A stretch of DNA of 43,698 nt from Thermoleophilaceae bacterium (GCA_030447905.1 JAUJNZ010000003.1:1-43698), one strand, 5' to 3'. Positions 22,807-35,069 are shown, numbered from the stretch's first letter. Program-made: numbers and translations. The notes: generated by a model from the sequence alone, not told the origin.

Positions 22807-23055
22807 GCCGCGACGCGGGTCGCGCCCTGACGTGGAGCTGCGCACGGGTTAGCTTCAGCCCTTTTTCCCACTTGAGGGCACAGGCCACGACCCTCGTCCG
22901 ACGAAGCCGTTCGCCTCATGCCATCGGCGAGATCAACGATCCGGGGTCAGCGCAGGAGGCAAGCTCCTCGACATCGAGCTGCTCCTCCGGGGCATAGAGA
23001 GCGTCAGGCGCGTTAGAGTCGGCGGGCGAGCCGTCGACCTCCCGACGCCCGACCC

Positions 23056-24426
23056 TTGACCACCTTGCGCCGCGCCTCCCACGATCCCCAAGCGACGCCG
23101 GACGCCCATTGGCTGCGATGCGAGGGCTGCGGCGCCACCTACGCCGACGACGGCCTGCGGTTGACCTGCGACCAGGAGCACGAGCCCGCCCTCCTCACGA
23201 GCCGCTACCGAGAGGCTGCCTTCGTGCCCGACGGCGATGCCGGCGGCCTGTTCAGATACCGCAGCTGGCTGCCGTGCTCGGGCCCCGTGAACGGCGAGGG
23301 GGCGCCCGCGACCGTGACCTACCGCAGCGAGGACCTCAACCAGGCCCTCGGCCTGCCCAACCTGTGGATCGCTTTCAACGGCGTCTGGCCCGAGCGGGGC
23401 GCCGCGTGCGAGACGGCGACGTTCAAGGACCTCGAGGCGAGCGCCGTACTCGCGCGCCTTCCCGCGGGGGGCGATCGGACCCTGGTCGTGGCGTCGGCGG
23501 GCAACACGGCGGCCGCCTTTGCGAGGGCCTGCTCCCGCGAGCGAGTCGGGTGCGTGATCGTCTTGCCCGAGGACGGTCTTACCGCTCTCGAGCTCGCGAG
23601 TCCGCTGGACCCGTGCGTGCGGCTGGTCGCGCTCGGGCGCGGGTGCGACTACACGGACGCCATCCGCCTCGCCGACCACCTGGCCGATACGCCGGGCTTT
23701 CTCGCCGAGGGAGGGACGAAGAACGTCGGCCGGCGCGACGCGCTCGGCACCGTCCTGCTGAACGCGGTGGAGACCATCGGCGAGCTCCCGCGGCACTACT
23801 TCCAGGCGGTGGGAAGCGGCGCCGGCGGCATCGCTGCCTATGAGGCGGCTACCCGGCTCGTCGCCGACGGGCGCTTCGGATGCCGCCTGCCGCGGCTCTT
23901 CCTGAGCCAGAACCTCCCCTTCGCCCCGATCGCCGCGTCTTGGCGGCGCAGGCAGCGCGCCCTCGCCGAGTTGCCCGATGCGAAGGCACGGGTGCGGCGC
24001 ATCAAGGCCACCGCGCTGTCGAACCGCCAGCCGGCCTACTCGCCGGCCGGCGGACTCTACGATGCGCTTAGGGCGACCGGCGGAGAGATGCTTGGCGTTC
24101 ACAACCAGGAGCTCGACTCGGCGGCTCGCCTGTTCCGCGATACGGAGGGCATCGATGTCGAGCCCGAGAGCGCCGTCGCACTCGCGTCGCTGATCAAGGC
24201 CCGGGCGGAGGGGCGCGTCGACGGCCGAACCTCGATACTCCTGAACGTGACCGGTGGCGGGCGCTCGAGGCGGATCAACGGAGGCGGCGGCCAGCCGGTT
24301 CGCGCGGACCTCGAGCTCGGAGCGGGCCTCGGGCTCGACGGCTCTCGCGAGCGAGTGCTGTCGCTGTTCGGGGACGGACTGCCCGGACGCGATCGCCGCG
24401 GCACCGAGAGCGCGGTCAGACGATGA
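23056..24426 (+). CDS. Cysteate synthase-like / threonine synthase-type PLP enzyme
   Basis: 456 residues from TTG 23056; no ATG or GTG fits better before HWLRCEGCGATYADDGLRLT, a small zinc-ribbon-like start also found in threonine and cysteate synthases. The PLP lysine is Lys124 in ETATFKDLEA; the phosphate-binding loops are ASAGNTAAAF and GSGAGGIAAYEAATRL. FRYRSWLPC, TYRSEDLNQALGLPNLWIAF, EGGTKNVGRRDALGTVLLNA and LPRHYFQAV all resemble methanogen cysteate synthase (O-phosphoserine plus sulfite to L-cysteate) more than ordinary threonine synthase. Activity on phosphoserine/sulfite is inferred; the enzyme could instead use another beta- or gamma-substituted amino acid. First gene of a coupled operon with an aminotransferase and two methyltransferases. 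Confidence 0.72.
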   Translation: MTTLRRASHDPQATPDAHWLRCEGCGATYADDGLRLTCDQEHEPALLTSRYREAAFVPDGDAGGLFRYRSWLPCSGPVNGEGAPATVTYRSEDLNQALGLPNLWIAFNGVWPERGAACETATFKDLEASAVLARLPAGGDRTLVVASAGNTAAAFARACSRERVGCVIVLPEDGLTALELASPLDPCVRLVALGRGCDYTDAIRLADHLADTPGFLAEGGTKNVGRRDALGTVLLNAVETIGELPRHYFQAVGSGAGGIAAYEAATRLVADGRFGCRLPRLFLSQNLPFAPIAASWRRRQRALAELPDAKARVRRIKATALSNRQPAYSPAGGLYDALRATGGEMLGVHNQELDSAARLFRDTEGIDVEPESAVALASLIKARAEGRVDGRTSILLNVTGGGRSRRINGGGGQPVRADLELGAGLGLDGSRERVLSLFGDGLPGRDRRGTESAVRR

Positions 24427-25847
24427 CTACCGGCGACACCACGGAGCGCCGGCGCCCCGTGAGGCTCGAGGCCGACACGGCCGAGCACTTCGAGGCGATC
24501 ACCCCGGCTTCGCGGCGGTCCGTCGGCGACGCCACGGCCTACCTCCCAGGCGGTGACTCGCGCAGCACGCTGTTCCACCCTCCCTACCCGCTGACCTTCG
24601 AGGAGGGGCACGGCTGCCGGGTCGTCGACCTCGACGGCAACGCGCTGCTCGACTTCACCGGCAACCACACGTCGCTCGTCCACGGCTACGGGCACCCGCG
24701 GGTGCTCGAGGCGGTCGCCGGCCAGCTCCGCAGGGGAACTGCGTTTCCGGGCCTCACCCGCGCTCAGGCGGCCTTCGCGCGGCAGCTGTGCGAGCGCATC
24801 GAGTCGCTCGAGCGTGTGCGCTTCACGAGCTCCGGCACCGAGGCCACGCTCCAGGCGGTTCGCGCCGCACGGGCCTACACGGGCCGTCACGTCGTCGCGA
24901 AGATCGAGGGCGGCTACAACGGCAGCTGGGACGAGATGATGGTGAGCATCCACCCGCGCGTCGACCAGGCCGGTGACCGTGAGCGGCCGGAGTCCGTCCC
25001 GGCCTCCGAGGGCCTCACCGCCGGAGCTGCGAGCGACGTGTTGGTGCTGCCGTTCAACGACGAGGCCGCGACGCGCCGCCTGCTCGAGGACCGCGGCTCG
25101 TCGGTCGCCGCGGTGATCGTAGAGCCGGTGCTCGGCTCGGCCGGGATGATCCCCGCCGAGCCCTCCTACCTCCGGCTCCTCCGCGAGGTCACGAGCCGGA
25201 TGGGGATCGCCCTCATCTTCGACGAGGTCATCTCCTTCCGCGTCGCCCATGGCGGTGCGCAGGGGCACTATGGCGTTCGGCCGGACCTCACCTGCCTCGG
25301 CAAGGCGATCGGCGGCGGCTTCCCGCTCGGCGTGGTCGGAGGCCGTGCGGAGATCATGGAGCTGTTCGACCCCTCCGGCGGCCAGCCACGGGTGCCCCAC
25401 CCCGGCAGCTACAACGCCAACCCGATCAGCCTCGTGGCCGGGTCGGTGACGCTCGAGCTGCTGACCGAGGAGGCCGTGGATCATCTGAACGAGACCGGCG
25501 ACGCCCTGCGCAGCGATCTGCGTGACGCGTTCGACGAGGCCGGGCTCCCCGTCCAGGTCACGGGACTCGGCTCCCTCTTCGGCATCCACTTCCGGCCGGG
25601 CCCCGTCCGGGGCTACCGCGACACGCTCGCCTCGGACCGGGGCCTGCGCCACCGCCTGTTCCTGGGCCTCGTCGCGGAGGGCGTACTGATCGACCCTCGA
25701 GGGGCGGGCTGCCTCTCGACCGCGACCGGCCAGGCCGAGCTGGAAGCATTCTCGGGGGCGGTCCGGAGGGTGGCGCCTTCCCTGGCGGGCGGCGACGACC
25801 ACCGGATCGGGGAACCACCTGGACCGGACGCCGGGCGGCAAGGATGA
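24423..25847 (+). CDS. Class III aminotransferase, glutamate-1-semialdehyde aminomutase-like
   Basis: 474 residues; ATG 24423 overlaps the preceding stop (ATGA). Fold type I PLP enzyme: GCRVVDLDGNALLDFTGNHT, VRFTSSGTEATLQAVRAARA (cofactor phosphate loop), KIEGGYNGSWDEMMV, VAAVIVEPVLGSAGMIP, IALIFDEVISFR (Asp contacting the pyridine nitrogen), and the Schiff-base lysine Lys294 in CLGKAIGGGFPLG. The family includes both aminotransferases and GSA-type 2,1-aminomutases; the sequence alone does not decide. If the operon makes cysteate, this enzyme could deaminate it or shift its amino group. A hydrophilic C-terminal tail of about 20 residues extends past the domain. Confidence 0.88.
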   Translation: MTTGDTTERRRPVRLEADTAEHFEAITPASRRSVGDATAYLPGGDSRSTLFHPPYPLTFEEGHGCRVVDLDGNALLDFTGNHTSLVHGYGHPRVLEAVAGQLRRGTAFPGLTRAQAAFARQLCERIESLERVRFTSSGTEATLQAVRAARAYTGRHVVAKIEGGYNGSWDEMMVSIHPRVDQAGDRERPESVPASEGLTAGAASDVLVLPFNDEAATRRLLEDRGSSVAAVIVEPVLGSAGMIPAEPSYLRLLREVTSRMGIALIFDEVISFRVAHGGAQGHYGVRPDLTCLGKAIGGGFPLGVVGGRAEIMELFDPSGGQPRVPHPGSYNANPISLVAGSVTLELLTEEAVDHLNETGDALRSDLRDAFDEAGLPVQVTGLGSLFGIHFRPGPVRGYRDTLASDRGLRHRLFLGLVAEGVLIDPRGAGCLSTATGQAELEAFSGAVRRVAPSLAGGDDHRIGEPPGPDAGRQG

Positions 25848-26494
25848 GCGAGAGGCCGGACTCCGGAGACCTGCCGAGCAGGTACGACCTCAACTCGGTG
25901 TTCGCCGCGAAGGACAGCCGCGAGGTCGCCGAGCTGTACGACCACTGGGCCGACGACTACGAGCAGAGCATCCTCAGCTGGGGTTACCTCACGCCTGCCG
26001 TGACCTCAGGGCTTGTCGGCCGCTTCGTCGAGGACAGGGCGGCGCCGGTGCTCGACGCCGGCGCGGGAACGGGCCTCATGGGCGAGGTGCTCGCGACGCT
26101 CGGCTACTCCGACCTTGTCGCGATCGACATCTCGGAGAAGATGCTCGCGCACGCCCAAGGGAAGGGCGTCTACCGCGACGTCTCGCCGATGGAGCTCGGC
26201 CAGGAGCTCGACTTCCCGACCGGCGCCTTCGCGGCCGTCGTGGCGACGGGCGTCTTCGCCGCCGGGCACGCTCCGCCCGAATCGCTCGACGAGCTTGTGA
26301 GGGTGACGAGGGGCGGGGGTTCGGTCATCTTCAGCGTGCGCACCGACGTCCTCGACGATGCCTTCGGACCGACCCAGGACCGCCTCGAGGCGGAGGGGAG
26401 GTGGGAGCGCCTCGACCAGACGCTTCCGTTCTCGCACTTCCCGCTCGAGAACCCCGAGCTCAAGCTTCAGGTCTTCGCGTACCGAGTCCGGTAG
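25844..26494 (+). CDS. SAM-dependent class I methyltransferase (Williams-Beuren region 27 type)
   Basis: 216 residues; ATG 25844 overlaps the aminotransferase stop (ATGA). AELYDHWADDYEQSILSWGY is followed by motif I VLDAGAGTGLMGEVLATLGY, the acidic end of strand 2 LVAIDISEKMLAHAQGKGVY, and FAAVVATGVFAAGHAPPESL. The 'Y-D-x-W-A-x-x-Y-D/E' start and the HAP segment are typical of the family near WBSCR27. Substrate unknown; the tight coupling suggests it methylates a product of the two PLP enzymes, perhaps on nitrogen. Confidence 0.85.
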   Translation: MSERPDSGDLPSRYDLNSVFAAKDSREVAELYDHWADDYEQSILSWGYLTPAVTSGLVGRFVEDRAAPVLDAGAGTGLMGEVLATLGYSDLVAIDISEKMLAHAQGKGVYRDVSPMELGQELDFPTGAFAAVVATGVFAAGHAPPESLDELVRVTRGGGSVIFSVRTDVLDDAFGPTQDRLEAEGRWERLDQTLPFSHFPLENPELKLQVFAYRVR

Positions 26495-26499
26495 GCCTC

Positions 26500-27117
26500 G
26501 TGGACGCCCAGGGCTGGAACGAACGCTACGCCAAGCTAGAGCGAGTCTCCTCCGAGCCGAATCCGCTGGTCGCGGAGCTCGCCGGCCCGCTCCGGCCCGG
26601 ACGAGCACTCGACCTCGCCGCCGGCGAGGGTCGCCACGCCCTCTGGCTCGCACGCCGCGGCTGGCGCGTGACGGCCGTCGACTTCTCCGAGGTCGGGGTC
26701 GAGAAGGGCCGCCAGGCCGCTGAGGCGGACGGGCTTGAGGTCCAGTGGGTGGTCGCTGATGTGAGGTCATATCGCCCCGCGACCGCCTTCGACCTCGTCC
26801 TCATGACCTTCTATCACCCCGACTTCTCGGAGCGGCCGCAGGTGTTCTCCACCGTGGCCGGCGCCGTAGCGCCCGGCGGCCACCTGCTCATAGCCGGCCG
26901 CCATCGCGACGACATCGGCCGCGACGGCGGCCGCGGGCCCCGCGACCCCGCCCGCCGCTACACGCCGGAGCAGCTGGCCGGGGCGTTCCCCGGGATCGAG
27001 CTGACCCAATGCGAGCCGCGGACTCGCGTGATCGAGGGCGACGACGGCCCGGTCGAGGTCACCGACGTCGTCGCTTTCGGCGTCTCCCAACGCCAAAGCG
27101 CCCTGAGCTCGGCGTAG
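26500..27117 (+). CDS. SAM-dependent methyltransferase (TehB/thiopurine-like)
   Basis: 205 residues from GTG 26500, five bases after the previous stop. WNERYAKLERVSSEPNPLVA is followed by motif I ALDLAAGEGRHALWLARRGW, VTAVDFSEVGVEKGRQAAEA, and FDLVLMTFYHPDFSERPQVF. The PNP-LVAEL beginning and the AxGEGR-x-A-x-WLA motif mark the TehB/thiopurine-type group that methylates small molecules or oxyanions. The last gene of the coupled set; then 125 bp separates it from the peptidase gene. Confidence 0.85.
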   Translation: MDAQGWNERYAKLERVSSEPNPLVAELAGPLRPGRALDLAAGEGRHALWLARRGWRVTAVDFSEVGVEKGRQAAEADGLEVQWVVADVRSYRPATAFDLVLMTFYHPDFSERPQVFSTVAGAVAPGGHLLIAGRHRDDIGRDGGRGPRDPARRYTPEQLAGAFPGIELTQCEPRTRVIEGDDGPVEVTDVVAFGVSQRQSALSSA

Positions 27118-27242: not shown

Positions 27243-28097
27243 GTGATCACCGACGTCCCGGGCGTGCGCGTCGGCCACTTCACCGACGCGGTCGCCCGCA
27301 CGGGCGCGACCGCGGTCGTCCTGCCCGAGGGAACGCGGGCCTCGGGTGAGGTACGGGGAGGCGCGCCGGCCACCCGCGAGTGGGATCTGCTCGTGCCCGG
27401 GCGGCGCGTCGAGCGCGTCGACGTGGTGATGCTGGCGGGCGGCTCGGCCTTCGGCCTCGCCGCCTGCGACGGCGCCATGCGCTGGTGCGAGGAACAGAGC
27501 CGCGGGCACCCGACGCTCGCCGGGCGAGTGCCGATCGTGGTCGGCGCCGCGCTGTTCGACCTCCTGCCCGGAGACGGGAGCGTGCGCCCTGGACCGCGAG
27601 AGGGCTATGCGGCGTGCGCCGCGGCGAGCGACGATCCGCCCGAGCTCGGGGCGGTCGGGGCGGGCACGGGCGCCATGATCGACAAGTGGCGAGGCTTCGA
27701 GCACGCTCGGCCGGCCGGCATCGGCAGCGCCGCCGAGCACGACGATGAGCTCGTTGTCGGCGCGCTGCTCGCGGTCAACGCCTTCGGCGGCCTGGTCGAC
27801 CCCGGCGCGTCGCGACATCCGGTGTCGGAGCTGATCGTCGCCGGGGGACCGATCGAGAACACGACGATCGGCCTCGTCGCCACCAACGCGCGGCTAGACA
27901 AGGCGAGCTGCCGGCTCGTCGCCGAGTCGGCGCACGCAGGCCTGGCGCGGGTTCTCGAGCCCGTGGCCTCGACGCTCGACGGCGACGCGGTCGTCGCGGC
28001 GTCGACCGGGGCGCTCGCCGGCGCTCCGCTGGAGCGGGTGCGCATGCTCGCCGCCCGCGCGGTCGAGGCGGCGGTGCGTTCCGCCGTGAGCCCGTAG
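27243..28097 (+). CDS. P1 family (S58) peptidase, DmpA/L-aminopeptidase D-Ala-esterase type
   Basis: 284 residues from GTG 27243. ITDVPGVRVGHFTDAVARTG is the usual start of this Ntn-like family. VVMLAGGSAFGLAACDGAMR and the segment GAMIDKWRGFEHARPAGIGS follow, then the self-cleavage/nucleophile region ENTTIGLVATNARLDKASC, with Thr as the likely new N-terminus. Such enzymes cleave short peptides or amides. Shorter than many members (about 340) but core complete. Same direction as the PLP/methyltransferase operon, 125 bp after it, so membership of the operon is possible but less sure. Confidence 0.85.
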   Translation: MITDVPGVRVGHFTDAVARTGATAVVLPEGTRASGEVRGGAPATREWDLLVPGRRVERVDVVMLAGGSAFGLAACDGAMRWCEEQSRGHPTLAGRVPIVVGAALFDLLPGDGSVRPGPREGYAACAAASDDPPELGAVGAGTGAMIDKWRGFEHARPAGIGSAAEHDDELVVGALLAVNAFGGLVDPGASRHPVSELIVAGGPIENTTIGLVATNARLDKASCRLVAESAHAGLARVLEPVASTLDGDAVVAASTGALAGAPLERVRMLAARAVEAAVRSAVSP

Positions 28098-33419: not shown

Positions 33420-35069
33420 ATGACCGAGCGAGCGATCGACCGCGTGCTCGAGGCGCTGCAACGCTCGGACCTCGACTATCGCCCGAGCGCTCACGAGCAC
33501 GAGCGATGGATGGCGCAGTGCCCAGTCCGACGACCGCTCACCGTCGCTGTCGATCGCAGCCAGGAGATCGGACCCGACCGCAAGCCCGGCGCGCTTATTC
33601 ACTGCTTTGCCGGTTGTAGTGGCGCGACGTGGTCTCGGCACGCTCGGCTCCGGGCCGCCGACCTCTACGACGGCGAGCGGCGCACGAACAGGAACGGCAA
33701 GGCCAGCAGCCGCTCGGCGCGCAAAGCAACAGGCGGAGGCCGTCCGCCCGAAGCCGACCTCGGCAACACCGAGCGCCTCGTTGCCGCCCACAGCCCCGAC
33801 CTCCGCTACGTCTCCGGCCTCGGCTGGCACGTCTGGAATGACCTTCTTCCGCCCCGATACGGACGGCGCCGTCATGCGCTTCGCCAAGCAGGTGCCTCGG
33901 CGCATGTACGAAGAGGCCGCGCGGCTCGGGATGCCGACGCGCGCAAGGAACTCGTCGCTCACGCGGTCAAGTCCGAGTCGGAGGCGCGGCTGCGAGCGAT
34001 GGTCACCCTCGCCGAGACCGAAGAGACGGTCGTCGCGGCGCCCTCCAGGCTCGACGCTCACCCGTTCCTGCTGAACGTCGAGAACGAGCACGATCAACTT
34101 AGTGACCGGCGAGCTGCGCGCGCACCGCCGCGATGACCTGCTCACCAAAGATGGCGCCCGTCGCCTATGAGCCGGACGCTCACGATCCGGCGTGGGCCGT
34201 GTTCCTCGAGACCACGACCGGCGGCGACGCCGAGCTCGACGCTGCGCCGAGCCGCCGGCTACACGCTCACGGGCGAGACCGGGAGGAGGCCCGCCTCTTC
34301 TTCGCCCTTGGCCGCGAGGCGACAGGTAAGTCCACATTCCTCGGAGCCCTCAAGGCGACGCTCGGCGACTACGCGAAGACCGCCGACTTCGAGACCTTCG
34401 TCGCCCATCGCGGCGAGTCGGGACCGCGTGCCGACGTCGCCCGCCTCATGGGCGCCCGCATGGTGGCGAGCCTCGAGGTCGACGAGGAAAGCGCCTGGCC
34501 GAGGGTCTTGTCAAGCAGCTCACGGGCGGCGATACCGTCGCGGCGCGGTTCGCCTCTACCGCGAGAGCTTCGAGTTCCGGCCGGCGTTTCAGCTCTGGCT
34601 GGCCGCCAACGCTCGCCCGCGAGTCAGCGCCGACGGCGCGATCTGGCGGCGGATCATCCAGGGGCGTTCGTCGAGCAGGTGCCCGAGCACGAACGCGACC
34701 CTGAGCTAAAGCGGCACCTGACCACCGATCCGCAGGCGCGCAGCGCCATTCTCACCTGGGCGATTTCGCGGTTGTCTTGGTGGCAGCGTGATGGGCTCGG
34801 AGTCCCTCAGCGCGTGCGCGACTACACCGCCGAGTACCGCGCTGAGAACGACCCCCGTCGCGGAATGGCTCGGAGCGTGTTGTCGGGCTGGAGCCTGAAG
34901 ACGGTAGCCGATCTGCGCTCCTCCCTATGAGCGTGGGCCGAGCGCAACGGCGAGAAGGCAATCTGCAGCGAAGGCCCTCGGTGCCGCCCTACGCGCCCGC
35001 GGCTGTACCTCGAAGCCGACCAAGCGCCAGCGCACATGGCAGGGCATCGCGCTGCTCGAGGGTGACGGG
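33420..35069 (+). pseudogene. P4-type primase-helicase, multiply frameshifted
   Basis: Starts MTERAIDRVLEALQRSDLDY with HEHERWMAQCP and ALIHCFAGCS as a CHC2-like zinc primase start (C..H..HC..C). Then in successive frames SPDLRYVSGLGWHVWN, RMYEEAARLG, SRLDAHPFLLNVEN, KMAPVAYEPDAHDPAWAVF, and the helicase Walker A FFALGREATGKSTFLGALKA followed by LGDYAKTADFETFVAHRGES and AAGPRADVARLMGARMVASL-like motifs. ELKRHLTTDPQARSAILTWA and VPQRVRDYTAEYRAENDP end the D5/SF3 core. At least four frame changes. This would have initiated element replication. Confidence 0.75.

Follow-up and report, generated by a model that had tools for sequence, protein, structure and literature searches.

The window analysed here, a stretch of 43,698 nt from Thermoleophilaceae bacterium (GCA_030447905.1 JAUJNZ010000003.1:1-43698), contains at 23056-27117 a run of four closely packed genes, of which the first three, encoding a cysteate synthase, an aminotransferase and a first methyltransferase, are a conserved unit. 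We tentatively read these three as a sulfonate cassette in which the cysteate synthase is joined by a dedicated aminotransferase of class III and by a methyltransferase resembling METTL27, with gene 4 left outside, an interpretation that we place somewhat short of an even chance. Possible, albeit doubtful, is the further proposal that the cassette leads, via a cysteate-specialised aminotransferase, to a methylated sulfonate that has not been described before (C-, N- or O-methylated sulfopyruvate or cysteate), on a branch separate from coenzyme M (CoM) and sulfonolipids. The features are as follows:

23056..24426, + strand: gene 1, cysteate synthase family protein with PLP Lys124 (TTG start, 456 aa; TIGR03844, 9k3c, tree)
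24423..25847, + strand: gene 2, class III aminotransferase of the beta-amino-acid type (ATG start, 474 aa; Aminotran_3, 6k8h, residue alignment)
25844..26494, + strand: gene 3, METTL27/WBSCR27-like class I SAM-dependent methyltransferase (ATG start, 216 aa; Methyltransf_11, 7qcb)
26500..27117, + strand: gene 4, TehB-like small class I methyltransferase (GTG start, 205 aa; Methyltransf_25, 2.1e-17)
23005..26497, + strand: three-gene conserved block (blastn against the sister locus L009, 89.5 % DNA identity)

An earlier note on this DNA had described four ORFs with ATGA overlaps at 24423 (genes 1/2) and 25844 (genes 2/3) and a 5-bp gap between genes 3 and 4 (26495-26499), and this layout, including the coordinates, is borne out by the sequence. 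DNA comparison further showed that both overlaps are retained in the sister L009, a Thermoleophilaceae metagenome-assembled genome. For all four genes, dN/dS between the window and this sister species is 0.29-0.39, which indicates purifying selection and thus real genes. The start codon of gene 1 is uncertain, as the GTG start of the sister is not kept in the window.

The product of gene 1 passes the cysteate synthase equivalog TIGR03844 with 439.7 bits against a curated cut-off of 324.9, whereas threonine synthase models reach 81 bits at best, and the closest protein of known structure is a cysteate synthase (PDB 9k3c, 1.9e-103), with threonine synthases following only at about 1e-16 and weaker. 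A tree of 13 rows, among them the threonine synthase encoded in the same genome, two structurally solved threonine synthases and further cysteate synthases, places gene 1 inside the cysteate synthase clade (98/98), together with a protein encoded beside a sulfopyruvate decarboxylase in another actinobacterium (G006), while the threonine synthases stand apart (100/99). The proposal that this is a cysteate-synthase family enzyme in an actinobacterium accordingly holds, also against the objection that it might group with ordinary threonine synthases; model scores and tree together rule out a threonine synthase. The alignment likewise confirms the PLP lysine as residue 124 (in TFKDLEA) and the presence of the KNVGRRD block, next to a TGGG motif. 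KNVGRRD aligns with the equivalent block of cysteate-synthase-clade proteins, which takes the form xN[VI][GA][RK]RD, and its first lysine is missing in two Streptomyces proteins of the clade. Besides gene 1, the source genome has five PALP-family genes, including a threonine synthase, so that gene 1 is not the housekeeping copy. Gene 1 is thus a true member of the cysteate-synthase family, and the predicted formation of cysteate is well supported.

Gene 2 belongs to the class III aminotransferases (Aminotran_3, 1.2e-58), and its best PDB match (4.7e-112) is 6k8h, the Sphaerobacter beta-amino-acid transaminase StoTA (PMC10589169). It is 46 % identical to StoTA, in which R47 is conserved, and 40 % identical to each of VpAT (4ao9) and MesAT (2yku), in both of which R47 and R426 are conserved. 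Residue alignment assigns R47, H82, K294 (the PLP lysine) and R426 as its key positions; R47 corresponds to residue 61 of the 4ao9 chain and R426 to residue 418, that is, with a 20-residue offset, to VpAT R41 and R398, of which the latter presumably binds 2-oxoglutarate. In VpAT, R41 binds the carboxyl group of the substrate, and V43 and Y76 bind its aromatic ring (PMC9850050). The cassette enzymes differ from StoTA, VpAT and MesAT at these ring positions, where V43 is replaced by threonine (T49) or proline and Y76 by an invariant histidine (H82), and they form a clade of their own (100/100); the deep fork between beta-amino-acid aminotransferases and glutamate-1-semialdehyde aminomutases (GSAM) in the same tree has support of 63/71. 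Gene 2 had previously been labelled a GSA-type aminotransferase, which stands at the level of the superfamily but not beyond it: the aminomutase models both fail (TIGR00713, 337.1 bits against a cut-off of 527.3; NF000818, 336.7 against 398), in place of the GSAM active-site stretches NSPVRAF and SWGPLIHG the cassette enzymes show DSRS.LFH (with LCH in the sister species) and GNHTSL, and the arginines of beta-amino-acid aminotransferases, namely the pair known from beta-phenylalanine aminotransferases, are present. An identity as glutamate-1-semialdehyde aminomutase (HemL) is ruled out by these scores and motifs.

With its two arginines and more polar pocket, the enzyme would accommodate a small molecule whose amine has an acidic group on either side, for example cysteate. 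Against this it counts that most of the R47/R426 features are common to other beta-amino-acid aminotransferases too. Cysteate is our candidate substrate because it has such a structure and because gene 1, next to gene 2, is predicted to produce it. Orthologues of gene 2 with more than 60 % identity were found, among 346 genomes of the phylum, only in cysteate synthase carriers, with the next best match at 47 %.

Gene 3 is a Methyltransf_11 protein (3.9e-13) whose nearest solved relative by sequence is 7qcb, WBSCR27/METTL27 (1.9e-23, 86.7 bits, residues 30-205). The latter is a vertebrate protein whose own substrate is not known (PMC9240639), and gene 3 differs from it in sitting within a metabolic gene block. 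An AlphaFold model, computed from an alignment of the window and whole-genome loci, has a mean pLDDT of 83 and a plain class I fold. When compared with the PDB it gave no hint of a substrate, as 50 different class I methyltransferase entries scored Z 16.6-18.9 and 7qcb, with Z 18.1, was tied with many generic methyltransferases. The gene 3 proteins of the window, the sister and G563 and a fragment from G418 form a well-supported subfamily (100/99), apart from other methyltransferases of the same genome family.

With respect to distribution, a single 3.5-kb blastn block covering genes 1-3 links window 23005-26497 to L009 9920-13376. Outside the window's class, G563 (locus L014) carries on one strand a methyltransferase (61 % to gene 3), a cysteate synthase (51 %) and an aminotransferase (64 %), the methyltransferase lying 383 bp upstream of the synthase and the aminotransferase being followed by an APC permease, DUF3311, a Na-symporter and an amidohydrolase. 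In G572, the synthase and the aminotransferase are encoded on a contig of 5.2 kb, on which the methyltransferase was not seen. Both genomes belong to the same genus of another, distantly related actinobacterial class, which we suspect from its make-up to be Rubrobacterales and of which 39 genomes, all of one family, were searched; as they share a genus, the full cassette is known from only two independent lineages. Overall, cysteate synthase carriers are rare, accounting for 4 of 396 sampled genomes of the phylum, 2 of 299 of the class, 2 of 232 of the order and 2 of 31 of the family, each time with the source genome counted. The earlier note's impression of an unusual linked gene set is therefore sustained for genes 1-3, which are linked in the sister and in a second class, but not its four-gene order, from which gene 4 drops out. 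A literature search of limited extent found no published description of this gene set, and no paper on cysteate with a class III aminotransferase or on the terms N-methyl, sulfonate, methyltransferase and aminotransferase.

In the sister, gene 4 (window 26499-27087) matches a separate inverted block at L009 16474-17065, roughly 3 kb away from the three-gene block, for which reason we reject a four-gene unit. It was also not found in the regions L013-L015 by tblastn or annotation and is probably a bystander. Directly downstream, at 27243-28097, lies a gene for a peptidase of family S58 (DmpA-like). Since the upstream neighbours of this peptidase gene differ between the congeners G661 and G662, the site readily undergoes rearrangement. 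Sequence common to G662 and G663 is limited there to about 140 bp, and no clean empty site could be drawn in G661, G662 or G663. Further along, the segment 30362-40292 holds tRNA-Ser and tRNA-Arg and, after them, ORFs resembling a D5_N primase (33420-34136) and a phage integrase (38994-40292); it lies outside the cassette and is probably an integrated element associated with tRNA genes.

On our favoured reading, gene 1 would form cysteate from phosphoserine and sulfite, a step well supported by its family. The sulfite could come from sulfate assimilation, as a PAPS-reductase family gene occurs in all carriers. Gene 2 may then bind cysteate as a beta-amino-acid analogue, with the sulfonate on R47 and the alpha-carboxylate on R426, and would pass the amino group to a 2-oxo acid to give sulfopyruvate, as residues and co-occurrence suggest. 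The cassette itself contains no gene for using sulfopyruvate. Finally, and here we are guessing from linkage, gene 3 might methylate sulfopyruvate or a close derivative to yield a small methylated sulfonate. The tie of gene 3 to the pathway is weak, because the gene stands apart upstream in G563, is missing from view on the G572 contig and occurs alone in G418. In the latter genome (L036 2-5652), in which no cysteate synthase was found, the gene 3 relative is followed by an APC permease, a MctP-like symporter and a further gene, an order that equals the one around the G563 cassette minus cysteate synthase and aminotransferase. Either the pair was lost in G418, or elsewhere it was inserted beside a pre-existing methyltransferase.

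This arrangement speaks for an alternative in which only synthase and aminotransferase belong together, the methyltransferase being in either lineage a neighbour with no relation to them, and the G572 contig points the same way; however, the same methyltransferase subfamily adjoins the pair in two classes and its ATGA overlap is present in both sister species, so that we regard the absence of a common pathway as unlikely. Another unlikely reading, suggested by the earlier note, assigns gene 3 the N-methylation of cysteate or derived taurine to a zwitterionic, betaine-like solute, the aminotransferase recycling nitrogen or disposing of excess cysteate. Small class I methyltransferases do include N-methyltransferases, the structural matches of gene 3 comprise, among others, N-methyltransferases for phosphatidylethanolamine and phosphoethanolamine, and Shinella encodes a distant relative of gene 3 within a few kb of choline/betaine genes, on the opposite strand. 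Yet these structural matches are generic and tied in score, none of the equivalog models for betaine N-methyltransferases matches gene 3, and a cysteate decarboxylase is not seen within the cassette. It is also conceivable, if quite improbable, that the synthase has come to use another nucleophile, its product being a different beta-substituted alanine on which aminotransferase and methyltransferase act. Identity of the cassette proteins to the cysteate synthase of known structure and to the one encoded next to sulfopyruvate decarboxylase is only 41-46 %, but the clade motifs are largely preserved ([TS]FK[DE]xEA, RRD block, TGGG), and on the equivalog model the G006 protein differs in score by no more than 30 bits.

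The two known uses of cysteate are harder still to reconcile with the cassette. In the type 2 CoM biosynthesis of Methanosarcina (MA3297 cysteate synthase, aspartate aminotransferase, MA3298 ComDE), cysteate is converted via sulfopyruvate and sulfoacetaldehyde to CoM, so that the first enzyme family and the transamination after cysteate are shared with the cassette; there, however, transamination falls to a general aspartate aminotransferase whose gene is not linked (PMC12713407), whereas the aminotransferase of the cassette is a linked class III enzyme accompanied by a methyltransferase. A related synthase does adjoin sulfopyruvate decarboxylase in G006, where this enzyme scores 208 bits, but the cassette genomes offer only matches of 36-42 bits to other TPP enzymes. 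As the decarboxylase is missing, a CoM route is very unlikely indeed, with a small chance left that the gene was missed in these draft genomes. Hardly more probable is a sulfonolipid route as in capnine or sulfobacin synthesis, in which cysteate would be condensed with an acyl group and aminotransferase and methyltransferase would be accessory. That pathway starts from L-phosphoserine and has known bacterial cysteate synthases (PMC11211663), but its acyltransferase and 3-ketocapnine reductase genes are absent from the cassette block, and no acyltransferase-type or ketoreductase gene is common to the carriers.

So far, cysteate synthase is known from CoM synthesis in methanogens and from bacterial sulfonolipids. 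If the sulfonate cassette reading is true, Actinomycetota would provide a further, independently conserved setting that lacks sulfopyruvate decarboxylase, and thus another use of cysteate, as well as a sequence marker for cysteate-specific class III aminotransferases. The three genes are small enough for joint expression and direct testing.

Relatives of gene 1 were also observed in other surroundings. In G006, an actinomycetote of the window's class, the cysteate synthase (L013 8257-19438) lies beside a fused sulfopyruvate decarboxylase and is neighboured by genes for a TfrB-like Fe-S protein, an AcsV-like corrinoid activase, a corrinoid protein, a MtaA-type methylcobamide:CoM methyltransferase, a MtrH-like protein and a URO-D protein, which looks like archaeal-type CoM synthesis and methyl-CoM chemistry in a bacterium. 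Furthermore, cysteate synthase family genes occur on plasmids of Streptomyces sp. NBC_01340 (L027 13965-15278, 46 % to gene 1) and Streptomyces sp. NBC_01435 (L028 13830-15278, 41 %). Both adjoin a very long ORF resembling a modular synthetase, with DpgC/DpgD nearby in the former and a PLP enzyme and HPPD in the latter, and cysteate may be a building block in these two undescribed clusters.
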